Assembly: GCF_901686465.1 (NCBI RefSeq)
Contig: NZ_LR594487.1
Span: forward strand, 1,795,650 to 1,859,649
Direction of reading: 5' to 3'
DNA length: 64,000 bases
Source of the DNA: Halorubrum sp. DM2
GTDB lineage: Archaea > Halobacteriota > Halobacteria > Halobacteriales > Haloferacaceae
Shown here: in pieces, positions 1,966 through 62,422 of the stretch
Layout: each line of letters begins with the position of its first letter
Numbering within the stretch: position 1 is the first letter of the stretch
The notes under the pieces: model-generated
Told to the model about the DNA's origin: nothing
Database searches by the model: none
The model's input: the letters and a program-made list of their open reading frames with translations, nothing else
Translations under genes and position numbers: made by a program

Positions 1966-2018
1966 TCGGATTATAATCAGATTTTGGAGGCTATTGCTCC
2001 CTCTCTGACCGTTCTACG

Positions 2019-2322
2019 CTGGCGCGCGCCTGCGAGGCCGCCTTGCGGCCGAGCAGCGTCGCGCGAGGGAGTCGGTCGCCGGAGCAACGCGGAGGCGACC
2101 GACGAGGCTGGGGAGGCGCGAGGTGCGGTGCGGGGCGGGACTCGAAGGGGCAGCCGCGAGGGCGAAGGCGCGCGACGTAAGCACCGCAGGAGCGAACGCA
2201 GTGAGCGACGAGGAGCGTGGTTCGAGAGAGCGAAGCTCTCTCGTCATCACGAAAGGCGCTTCGCGCCTTTCGAACGACAGCGAGCGCACCGAGTCCTCGC
2301 GGCTGGGGCTTCGGTGGTCTCC
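2019..2322 (+). repeat. Structured GC-rich repeat, copy A (downstream of hemB)
   Basis: About 300 nt between hemB and the convergent ferredoxin gene, with no credible protein. It starts with a 'ggcgcgcgcctgcgagg' head, then hairpin H1 (ggccgc/gcggcc), a 'cgcgcgagggagtcg' block, hairpin H2 (tcggtcgcc 2072-2080 with ggcgaccga 2094-2102), a 'gaggctggggaggcg' block, then 'ggactcgaaggggcag'. A long-range stem (cagccgcgagg 2151-2161 with cctcgcggctg 2295-2305) encloses two further hairpins (gagagc/gctctc and aaaggcgc/gcgccttt). It ends with 'ggggcttcggtggtct'. Homologous copies are at 29561-29865, 57616-57990 and 61936-62244. Confidence 0.85.
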
Positions 2323-2393
2323 GCATCGAAAGTGGCTCGACCGTACCGCACAACGGGAATCCCGAAGCGTTCCGCTCACCCGTCTCCGATCGA

Positions 2394-29527: not shown

Positions 29528-29560
29528 AATTCGTTGTAAACTACGATCGACACGAACAGC

Positions 29561-29865
29561 GCCGAAGCCCCAGCCGGGAGGCGGGCGCACGCTCGCTGCG
29601 CTCCTCACTCTGTCGCGTTGCTCCCTCGTTGCGGTGCTGCCGTCGTCATCAGAACGCGGAGCGTTCTGATTGGCTCACGAGAGCTTTGCTCTCGTGAACG
29701 CCTCCGCCCGCCTCCCGGCTGCCCCTTCGAGTCCCACCCGACCGCACAGCACCTCACGCCTCCCCAGCCTCGTCGCCGGTCCTCCGCTTCGCTTCGGACC
29801 GCCGACTCCCTCGCGCGGTGCTCCTCGCGCCCTTAAAAGGGCGCTCGGAGGCGCGCGCCACCGCA
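29561..29865 (-). repeat. Structured GC-rich repeat, copy B (downstream of the PUA gene)
   Basis: Minus-strand copy of the element seen at 2019-2322. Read on the minus strand it has the head 'gcggtggcgcgcgcctccga', hairpin H1 with a new stem (gcgccc/gggcgc, loop ttttaa), the 'gcgcgagggagtcg' block, H2 with loop 'gaagcgaagcgga', the 'gaggctggggaggcgtgagg' block and 'ggactcgaaggggcag'. A lengthened closing stem pairs 29705-29721 with 29571-29587 (17 bp). Two inner hairpins (acgagagc/gctctcgt and cagaacgc/gcgttctg) differ completely in sequence from copy A. The head lies 66 nt past the PUA gene stop, and the tail is 34 nt from the MITE-like element. Confidence 0.82.
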
Positions 29866-55911: not shown

Positions 55912-56027
55912 ACCACTTGGTTCGCTCACGGCGCACTAAACCCTGCCGACACCGGTCTACGCGTGAAAAAGGAGCGCCGTCAGTTCGTCGGCGTCCGCGC
56001 GACCGCGCGGACGGCCAAGTCGGGTCG

Positions 56028-57341
56028 TCAGTTACCGCCCGGGCCGCCGGCGTGGTCCGGCGGGCCGCTCTCGCCGTCCTCGTCGTCTTCGTCGTCCGCG
56101 TCGTCGTCATCGTCGTCGTCTCCTTCCGCGTCGTCCTCTTCCCCGTCCTCTTCTTCCGTGTCGTCCGCTTCGGTCTCGTCGTCCTCGGCGTCGTCACCGT
56201 TCGGGCCGGCGTGGTCCGGCGGGCCGCGCTCGCCGTCGTCGCTGCCGTTGCCGACGCCCTCGGGCGCGTTGCCGGGCGCGTCGCTGGCGTTGCCGTCGTC
56301 CTCGTCGTCACCGGCGTCGTCCGAGGCGTTACCGGGGTTGTTCTCCGTCGCGAAGTCGGAGACGGCCGCGCCGATACCGCCCTCGCGGTCGCTGATGTTC
56401 TCGATGAAGTCGCGCATCAGCTGACCGAACGGCGTTCCCGCGGAGTCGTCTTCCTCGTCGTCGTCGCCGGCCGTCAGCTCGACCGTCGTCGAGGCGCTCC
56501 GGTTGTCGTACTCGGCGGTCACGTCGACGGTCACGTCCTCCTCGGCGGCCGGAAGCGTCACGGTGCCGTTCGCGTCCGTCTCGTACTCGCCCGTCCCCGC
56601 GTACGAGGCGTTCTCGTCGGCGTCGTCCGCGAGGGCGACGCCGACCGTGGCGTTCTCGACGGGGTCGTCGTCGTCGCTGACCGTGACGACGGGTTCGTCG
56701 TCGGTGTTCTCAACGTCGAGTTCGAGCCCGTCGGGCGCTTCGAGGTCGACCGTCGTCGAGACGCTCCGGTTGTCGTACTCGGCGGTCACGTCGACGGTCA
56801 CGTCTTCCTCGGCGGCCGGAAGCGTCACCGTGCCGTTCGCGTCCGTGTCGTACTCGCCCGTCCCCGCGTACGAGGCGTTCGCGGGGTCGGCGACGCTCAC
56901 GTTAACCGTGGCGTTCTCGACGGCCTCGTCGTCGTCGGTGACGGTGACGACCGGCTCGCCGTCGGCGTCCTCAACGTCGAGTTCGAGTCCGTCGGGCGCT
57001 TCGAGGTCGACGGTCGTCGAGGCCGTCTCGTTACCTGAGGCGACGGTCACGTCGACCGTGACGTCCTCCTCTGCGGCGGGGAGCTCGACGGTACCGTTCG
57101 CGTCCGTCTGATACTCCCCCGCTCCCGCGTACGATTCGTTCTCGTCGTCGTCCTCGTCGGCGACGCTCACGACGACCGTGGCGTTCTCGACTGCGGTGTC
57201 GTTCTGTGTCACCGTAACGGTCGGTTCGCCGTCCGCGTCCTCGACGGCCACTTCGAGGTGGCCGTCGGCGGCCGCGACGCCGGTCATCGCGCCGAGCGCG
57301 ACGACCGCGATCAGCAGCAGGCTGGTGATGCGTTTGCTCAT
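56028..57341 (-). CDS. Secreted surface protein with tandem Ig-like repeats and acidic tail
   Basis: A 437-residue protein with a cleavable signal (KRITSLLLIAVVALGAMTGVAAA). Three beta-sandwich repeats of ~89 residues each follow (starting HLEVAVEDADGEP, LELDVEDADGEP and LELDVENTDDEP); each has AVENATV-type or PVENATV strands, a SYAGxGEYxTDANGTV loop and PAAEEDVTVDV strand. Many N-x-S/T sequons suggest heavy N-glycosylation. The last ~140 residues are low-complexity Asp/Glu/Gly/Asn. No membrane anchor is seen. The repeats are nearly identical at the DNA level (about 267 bp period). Confidence 0.82.
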   Translation of the reverse strand: MSKRITSLLLIAVVALGAMTGVAAADGHLEVAVEDADGEPTVTVTQNDTAVENATVVVSVADEDDDENESYAGAGEYQTDANGTVELPAAEEDVTVDVTVASGNETASTTVDLEAPDGLELDVEDADGEPVVTVTDDDEAVENATVNVSVADPANASYAGTGEYDTDANGTVTLPAAEEDVTVDVTAEYDNRSVSTTVDLEAPDGLELDVENTDDEPVVTVSDDDDPVENATVGVALADDADENASYAGTGEYETDANGTVTLPAAEEDVTVDVTAEYDNRSASTTVELTAGDDDEEDDSAGTPFGQLMRDFIENISDREGGIGAAVSDFATENNPGNASDDAGDDEDDGNASDAPGNAPEGVGNGSDDGERGPPDHAGPNGDDAEDDETEADDTEEEDGEEDDAEGDDDDDDDADDEDDEDGESGPPDHAGGPGGN

Positions 57342-57615
57342 GTCCACTTGGGTCCAACCGCCGTTACCGTATAAAAAGGAGAGTCGCTTAACGCGGTTTA
57401 ATCCGGTTTATTCTCGGGTTAGCGGGTTTGTGACGTCTGTTTGGAGTTTGGTGGCTATCTCGGGCGCGATTCGGGTAATTCGTGGTCGGTTCGACTCCGA
57501 TCCGTCGTCGCGCGCGCTATCGAAAACTGGTATCGGTGAAAATCAACGCGCCACAAAAAACACCGCCGAAACCCTAGTCGCTCGATACTACGGAACCGAC
57601 GTTGTGACCGAGACC

Positions 57616-57990
57616 GTCGAAGCCCCAGCCGCGAGGACTCGATGCGCTCGCTGTGGTCCTCAGTCGCTCGCTTCGCTCGCTCCTTGCGGTCCTTGCGTCG
57701 CGCGTCTTCGTCCTCGCGACTGCCCCTTCGAATCCCGCCCCTCCGGAAGACGTTCCTGCTCGCTTCGCTGCGCGGGCTGCGACTTCCGTGCTCCCGCTCG
57801 CTTCGTCGCCGGCGGCGAAGCCGCCGGCTGCCCGTGGCGCTCCGCGCCACGCTGCTCGCGGGAACGCACCGCGACCGCACCTCACGCCTCCCCAGCCTCG
57901 TCTGCGGCTCCCGTTGGTCGCCGCAGACTCCCTCGCGCGGCGCTGCTTCGCGGCCGCCGGTGGCGGCCGCTCGCAGGCGCGCGCCACCGC
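57616..57990 (-). repeat. Structured GC-rich repeat, copy C (expanded; downstream of the amidohydrolase)
   Basis: Minus-strand copy with the same fixed blocks as copies A and D: head 'gcggtggcgcgcgcctgcga', H1 (gcggccgc/gcggccgc, loop cacc region), block 'gccgcgcgagggagtctg', H2 with a new stem (gtctgcggc/gccgcagac), block 'gaggctggggaggcgtgagg', 'ggattcgaaggggcag' and the closing stem 57712-57722 with 57626-57636. It is ~70 nt longer because extra hairpins were added (for example gtggcgcggagcgccac and ccggcggcttcgccgccgg). The head lies 30 nt past the amidohydrolase stop codon. Confidence 0.8.
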
Positions 57991-61803: not shown

Positions 61804-61935
61804 CCCCCGAACGCCGGTCCGCCGTGGTCGGTTCCCGGACGAATTGGCGACGTTGAAATCCTGCGGAGTTGGTGGTTTTACAGCCCGGATCGCTCAGCAC
61901 AGGTGACGTAGTGATTGATCCGCTGAACTTAGTGC

Positions 61936-62244
61936 GGTGGCGCGTGCCTCCGAGGCCGCACCGCGGCCGAGGAGCGCCGCGCGAGGGAGTCGACCGGTCG
62001 AAGCGAAGCGGAGACCGGTCGACGAGGCTGGGGAGGCGTGAGGCTGTGCGGTGCGGGGCGGGACTCGAAGGGGCAGTCGCGAGGCTGACAGAGGCGACGC
62101 AAGCACCGCAGGAGCGAGTGAAACGAGCGACGAGGAGCGTGGTTCGAGACGCCTTCGGCGTCTCGTCATCACGAAAGGCGCTTTGCGCCTTTCGAACGAC
62201 AGCGAGCGTCTGTCCGCCTCGCGACTGGGGCTTCGGCGGTCTCC
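61936..62244 (+). repeat. Structured GC-rich repeat, copy D (downstream of the 165-aa gene)
   Basis: Plus-strand copy. Head 'ggtggcgcgtgcctccgagg', H1 (gccgc/gcggc), block 'gcgcgagggagtcg', H2 with an 11-bp stem (gtcgaccggtc/gaccggtcgac) and loop 'gaagcgaagcgga', block 'gaggctggggaggcgtgagg', then 'ggactcgaaggggcag'. Closing stem 62074-62084 with 62217-62227 encloses two hairpins (agacgcc/ggcgtct and aaaggcgc/gcgccttt). The tail is 'ggggcttcggcggtctcc'. A shorter echo of the tail ('ggctgggacttcggtagtc') follows at ~62288. Confidence 0.85.
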
Positions 62245-62422
62245 GTTGTGAAGCCGTCCTCGACAAAAATAGTCAGGTATAGCCGAGCGGCTGGGACTTC
62301 GGTAGTCGTGTCGATCCGCAATTTATAACCGCCCTTCAGCGATCAGCCGTTTCAGGCGAAACGTCTCTGAAAAGAGGATCCCAACAAAGCCGGCGAACTA
62401 TATCGTGGAAAAGCGAGCGCCG

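Follow-up and report, generated by a model that had tools for sequence, protein, structure and literature searches.

A modular intergenic repeat with compensatory base changes, present in many copies in Halorubrum genomes

Four copies of a two-module element in the window

The analysed stretch of DNA (the window) comprises 64,000 nucleotides of Halorubrum sp. DM2 (NZ_LR594487.1, positions 1,795,650 to 1,859,649 of the forward strand). It holds four copies, A to D, of an intergenic, non-coding element (Table 1). A preliminary description of this DNA had located these copies, and our search confirmed all four there, A and D on the forward and B and C on the reverse strand. The element is described throughout as read on the A/D strand. 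The gene near copy D encodes an oligopeptide ABC ATPase, and the neighbours of A, C and D in the window revealed no common function. The gene at 56027-57347, which adjoins copy C, contains three 261-bp tandem repeats (about 66-79% alike), the number of which may vary between species.

Table 1. Coordinates of the element copies and of the parts of copy D within the window
Feature	Position	Strand	Remarks
Copy A	2016..2323	+	between hemB (ALAD) and ferredoxin-like gene, convergent; orthologous copy in G006
Copy B	29560..29864	-	orthologous copy in G006, different hairpins
Copy C	57608..57990	-	between amidohydrolase gene and repeat-protein gene; site occupied in 11/13 Halorubrum compared
Copy D, whole element (module 1 + module 2)	61934..62244	+	lineage-specific; site empty in nearest relative
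H1 hairpin, GYGC.C-NNN-GA-(inner stem GGCCGC/GCGGCC)-GA-N'N'N'-G.CRC	61944..61977	+	symmetric GA/GA internal loop
Fixed block GCGCGAGGGA	61979..61988	+	almost invariant in 148 copies
H2 hairpin GTCGACCGGTC-(GAAGCGAAGCGGA)-GACCGGTCGAC	61989..62023	+	66 different arm pairs among copies collected
Core block GAGGCTGGGGAGGCGTGAGG	62024..62043	+	nearly invariant; common to other haloarchaeal genera
Module 2 5' block GGGACTCGAAGGGGCAG	62060..62076	+	
Closing stem of module 2, 5' arm	62074..62095	+	partner 62206-62227
Double-hairpin cassette in module 2	62140..62199	+	in A and D; most copies without
Closing stem of module 2, 3' arm	62206..62227	+	partner 62074-62095
3' fixed block CTGGGGCTTCGGCGGTCTCC	62225..62244	+	
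Decayed tail unit	62282..62307	+	repeats 3' strand of closing stem, 66-bp spacing

Module 1 runs from GGCGCG through the H1 hairpin, GCGCGAGGGA, the H2 hairpin and the core block, whose positions are mostly more than 98% invariant (165 copies), to a TGCGGTG-rich linker. The order in module 2 is GGGACTCGAAGGGGCAG, the first arm of a closing stem that reaches up to 22 pairs, a small hairpin in which two GA motifs stand in tandem (e.g. GCGAGCgaaGCGAGC), the second arm of that stem and CTGGGGCTTCGGCGGTCTCC. The outer triplets of H1 read TCC/GGA, TGC/GCA, GAC/GTC and CGT/ACG across copies. The H2 stems agree with those quoted in the preliminary description for A (2071-2080/2094-2103), D (61989-61999/62013-62023) and C (gtctgcggc/gccgcagac). 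Terminal inverted repeats, a hallmark of MITEs, were not found; the inverted repeats in D and A are internal stems, with no end-to-end pair.

Parts of the element also recur by themselves. A direct repeat, GTGCGGTG, at 61932-61939 and 62046-62053 brackets module 1 and not the whole element, which suggests that module 1 was inserted or exchanged as a unit. Among those seen, copies outside Halorubrum consist mostly of module 1 alone; in L063 and L064, which belong to another haloarchaeal family, a second part of another kind, including a GCTAGCT-containing stem, comes after module 1. The 60-nt double hairpin, organised as GTTCGA-hairpin-TCATCA-hairpin-TCGAAC and lying at 2218-2277 in A, also stands alone on plasmids of Halolamina, Haladaptatus, Natrinema and Natribaculum (L231, 1501-1562, where it adjoins a tnpB-like C-terminal fragment; L232, 1501-1563), and it appears to be a small mobile palindrome in its own right. 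About half of the module-2 copies carry tail units in which the 3' end recurs with a spacing of about 51 or 66 bp. Such units lie at 62216-62241 and 62282-62307 in the window and others in L031, L040 and L010; they reach up to five copies, some of them identical, and are a possible marker for strain typing.

Copy number, distribution and genomic setting

A search with the 23-nt core query GACGAGGCTGGGGAGGCGTGAGG, allowing up to three mismatches, revealed 137 matches (69 + 68) on the single-contig chromosome of Halorubrum sp. DM2 (3.455 Mb), whereas the reversed sequence, used as a control, gave none. At roughly 300 nt each, these 137 copies make up about 1% of the 3.45 Mb. The search of haloarchaeal genomes proposed in the preliminary description found the core in 65 of 391 genomes of the class and in 11 of 86 genera, again with no match for the reversed control in any of them. 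All 46 Halorubrum genomes were positive, the 45 others with 11 to 176 matches each at up to two mismatches. Module 1 occurs sporadically in ten other haloarchaeal genera, with 51 matches in genome G196, 35 in G162 and a few elsewhere. A covariance-model scan of 393 genomes of the phylum, run with stricter filters, gave 17 positives, all from one order. One copy lies on a Halorubrum plasmid, between convergent genes. Carriage by viruses found no support, as phage records contained no match to the element and IMG/VR no exact 20-mer. The idea of a replication-strand bias was dropped, since the listing that suggested runs of copies in the same orientation lacks known minus-strand copies (e.g. 2365388, 2694329).

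The gaps between genes were classified by rough gene calls from a simple codon model, on which convergent genes flank 10 of the 22 occupied gaps in Halorubrum sp. DM2 vs 56 of 316 unoccupied ones (p 0.004), and 36 of 80 in a wider set. Divergent gaps are rare, both here and in the related genome G006. This setting would fit a device at gene ends, either a bidirectional terminator or a stabiliser of mRNA 3' ends, situated mainly between the ends of genes and selected for strong structure. We consider this highly unlikely, however: G006 shows no convergent enrichment (4/22), no T-run was found past the 3' end, a terminator does not need an invariant unpaired block of 20 nt, and promoter avoidance explains the bias in gap types. 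Relative to the upstream gene, 20 copies have the same and 13 the opposite orientation, with no preference beyond the mix of gap types.

Compensatory changes and evolution at shared sites

In an alignment of ten copies, 98.3% of the cells in stem columns are paired, and 13 of the 27 pairs have changed on both sides. The covariance model R1, built from this alignment, was used on 97 distinct copies from Halorubrum sp. DM2 and on 49 distinct loci from other genomes. The 97.4% of cells that pair among the 97 copies exceed by far the 78.2 +- 0.5% found in shuffles, as do their 408 compensatory cells vs 120 +- 9.5; versions in which the partner strand was slid gave at most 44. The loci from other genomes showed 95.4% paired and 226 compensatory cells, compared with 58 in shuffles. 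Double changes were found for 22 of 25 pairs in the first set and for 24 of 25 in the second.

The covariation significance test called for in the preliminary description was carried out with a purpose-written, R-scape-like script (not R-scape itself), which re-places the substitutions at random on a FastTree tree. With E<0.05, 7 of 25 structure pairs were significant among the own copies and 13 of 25 among the loci elsewhere, whereas none of the 6191 and 5861 non-structure column pairs reached significance. Recombination between copies violates the tree of this null; the useful control is the zero among non-structure pairs. Covariance-model alignments lean towards the modelled structure, but a check in which helices were measured from anchors and only Watson-Crick pairs counted agrees with these results: it collected 66 distinct H2 arm pairs, and 747 of 783 pairs were Watson-Crick. 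In a plain MAFFT alignment, H2 and H1 pairs ranked top among all column pairs, and strict matching of the outer H1 triplets was seen in 33 of the 37 regular copies. With the raw MAFFT alignment as input, RNAalifold returned no structure because the hairpins vary in length, which the anchored seed and the covariance model overcome. Compensatory change in the paired columns is far beyond chance; the covariation first described from the four copies is borne out against shuffles, slid controls and a tree-based null, and extends further than had been claimed. Selection acting on the folded strand is the best-supported reading.

We compared the sites of the element with those in G006, of which 464 kb could be aligned with 91.5% identity over the aligned blocks. 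A G006 counterpart was found for 15 of the 19 own copies with clear synteny and not for the other four, which include D; conversely, 3 of the 18 copies in G006 have no counterpart in Halorubrum sp. DM2. The D site measures 604 bp in Halorubrum sp. DM2 vs 40 bp in G006, and about a dozen other species lack the element there too. In the test for a target-site duplication, the alignment of filled with empty intergenic regions stopped short of the junctions. At the sites of A, B and C, which both genomes share, flanks of about 90% identity enclose hairpins, and even a module 2, that are altogether different. At the C site, the blocks are intact in most of the species that carry the element and incomplete in L140 and L139; the stems differ between species, and most of the flanking sequence no longer aligns. 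These comparisons point to a slow gain and loss of sites and a fast exchange of hairpin cassettes, with the blocks and the pairing kept.

The earlier observation that whole stems are replaced with pairing kept therefore has two components. Point compensations do exist, as in the H2 arm GTC[G/A/T]GCGGC found with one loop, whereas other replacements are no stepwise compensation: between species, an orthologous site has received another hairpin cassette as a whole, probably by recombination. Through such swapping, pairing could survive without selection on every base pair. Taken to its end, this would make the element a neutral, MITE-like repeat in which recombination exchanges palindromic hairpins whole and quasi-palindrome correction keeps them perfect, while a folded strand has no function. 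The whole-cassette differences between flanks of about 90% identity, the many perfect stems with 3-nt loops and the tail units that duplicate parts of the element would all agree with this. We nevertheless judge it improbable, because the closing stem covaries too: in D its arms are separated by about 110 nt or more, which excludes an exchange in the form of a small palindrome. Nor would it account for the strict matching of the three-base outer stems of H1, for unpaired blocks that are near invariant at old orthologous sites, or for the strand asymmetry described below.

Strand, molecule and comparison with known repeats

The preliminary description had read one position of the closing stem as C-G in A (2151-2161/2295-2305), U.G in C and U-A in D (62074-62084/62217-62227), and had taken the wobble intermediate as a mark of RNA of this strand. 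The reading was confirmed, and across 115 distinct copies the position is C-G in 71, U-A in 24, U.G in 20 and C.A in none. The same sign holds for the two long stems, H2 and the closing stem (39 G.T vs 9 A.C), and in the covariance-model alignments (80 vs 32), whereas the inner GA hairpin shows no bias (6 vs 4). Within the near-invariant blocks, C-to-T changes exceed G-to-A changes, partly at positions able to pair as G.U and partly at one conserved unpaired C. The wobble argument is thus weaker than first put on three counts: the inner hairpin lacks the asymmetry; C-to-T is common at this unpaired C, so that a strand-biased mutation process may lie behind the excess of G.T; and the sign fits RNA of the A/D strand or single-stranded DNA (ssDNA) of that strand alike.

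Copy D has a predicted fold of -184 kcal/mol (z -6.8 vs dinucleotide shuffles; z -5.8 for the complement strand). RNA is favoured over ssDNA, although G.U pairs make up 1.6% of the long-stem pairs, which is low for RNA, and many hairpins have 3-nt loops instead of typical RNA tetraloops. In 21 of 92 own copies, the motif TTATAA lies in a cluster 17-25 bp ahead of the element, compared with 4 in the 34 bp further upstream; at the C site, most species have it at the corresponding place. As a TATA-like box it would put the start about 8-10 nt inside the element, within H1. The motif is palindromic, recurs 20-30 bp past the 3' end of the element and is missing from most copies; with the start falling inside H1 and the recurrence past the 3' end, we regard it as a lead to a promoter, not as proof.

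If the molecule were ssDNA, the folded A/D strand might be the mobile intermediate of an HUH/Y1-type or other single-strand transposase acting in trans, with the stems as recognition hairpins, on the model of IS200/IS605 derivatives and REP/RAYT. Triloops such as GCGAAGC form very stable DNA hairpins, D folds as DNA better than shuffles (z -5.3), a strand-specific tolerance of wobble fits ssDNA as well, the sites are polymorphic between species, and the genome contains two Y1 transposase genes. Neither Y1 locus bears an element block, however, and blastn of the elements against both loci found nothing; no partner gene was seen inside or consistently beside the copies, and orthologous copies have been retained over the genus. 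We regard this explanation as rather unlikely, if the most serious of the alternatives. The Y1 loci were the only ones examined for a parent transposase, and they share no sequence with the element. An IS200/IS605 derivative or PATE was rejected, since the Y1 transposase (tnpA) copies lack the element ends, and a retron, group II intron or SINE-like retroelement on the grounds that PF00078 (reverse transcriptase) gave no match in this genome and was detected in the control genomes.

The explanation that we put forward, with about an even chance of being correct, is a modular, non-autonomous structured repeat that is recognised as a folded strand through its invariant purine blocks. A fixed purine-rich scaffold would hold interchangeable, perfectly paired hairpins, and the element would work as a folded strand. 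The most likely molecule would be RNA of the A/D strand, supplied by read-through from the upstream gene or, in some copies, from the TATA-like box that lies some 20 bp ahead of the element. The invariant single-stranded blocks GCGCGAGGGA and GAGGCTGGGGAGGCGTGAGG may serve as the binding site of a host protein or complex, and the stems would need only to pair. New intergenic copies would arise at a low rate by some DNA-level route, and hairpin cassettes would be exchanged between copies by recombination. The structure with its covariation, the invariant blocks, the copy number, the gain and loss of sites, the long retention at one site and the cassette differences at shared sites are observed; transcription, the binding partner, recombination as the origin of the cassette differences, the route of spread and any effect on neighbouring genes we infer.

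More tentatively, the family might represent a large, genus-wide class of multi-copy archaeal ncRNA or an RNA-bound mobile element with a partner protein. Its hairpin cassettes would be freely exchangeable on a fixed purine scaffold with tandem GA motifs, and a genome would have up to more than 100 such loci. As a structured RNA family of an archaeal genus it would, if expressed, be unusual in its number of copies. The near-invariant 20-nt unpaired block common to other haloarchaeal families points to a putative binding partner. More than 100 natural copies of one fold within one genome, together with a relative that shares most sites and not the hairpins, amount to a natural saturation experiment on an RNA or ssDNA structure.

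The preliminary description had recognised no named RNA family in the element, and Rfam likewise returned no family match at the gathering score or at a permissive threshold. No record of the family for the genus was found in Rfam or in the open-access literature searched, where nothing on the element appeared under Halorubrum repeats or ncRNA, and to this extent it appears undescribed. Like Rfam-type multi-copy ncRNAs, it combines a secondary structure supported by covariation with fixed unpaired blocks; 11-176 copies per genome and the turnover of sites would be unusual for a housekeeping RNA. REP/BIME repeats have a short conserved single-stranded foot beside variable hairpins and are extragenic and strand-specific. 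The Halorubrum element resembles REP/BIME with RAYT in these features, but it has no linked RAYT-like gene, is several times longer and shares no sequence with the two Y1 genes of the genome. The ncRNAs described from vesicles of H. volcanii and Hbt. salinarum concern other genera (PMC10927574).

The nearest known kinds are BOX and ERIC repeats, which the element resembles by anatomy, with stronger evidence for its structure; it is non-coding, intergenic, of high copy number, able to fold and polymorphic between relatives. Like BOX of Streptococcus pneumoniae (PMC3049150), it is an intergenic composite of modules that varies in size, includes a part in variable tandem number, reaches a high copy number, is predicted to fold if transcribed, and lacks a transposase of its own. 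For BOX, terminal inverted repeats and target-site duplications are reported (PMC3049150). In the Halorubrum element the former were not found, and none of the latter was seen in alignments that stop short of the junctions; the element is also unrelated in sequence, GC-rich and archaeal, and its stems covary significantly, with hairpins that differ between orthologous copies. The copy number of ERIC ranges from 30 to 711 between related species (PMC2267715, PMC10969869), and the Halorubrum element shares with ERIC the intergenic location, the wide variation in copy number between relatives and an RNA-foldable imperfect palindrome. In contrast to the single long hairpin of about 127 bp in ERIC, it is built of several domains and combines hairpin cassettes and tandem GA motifs with unpaired blocks that are invariant.
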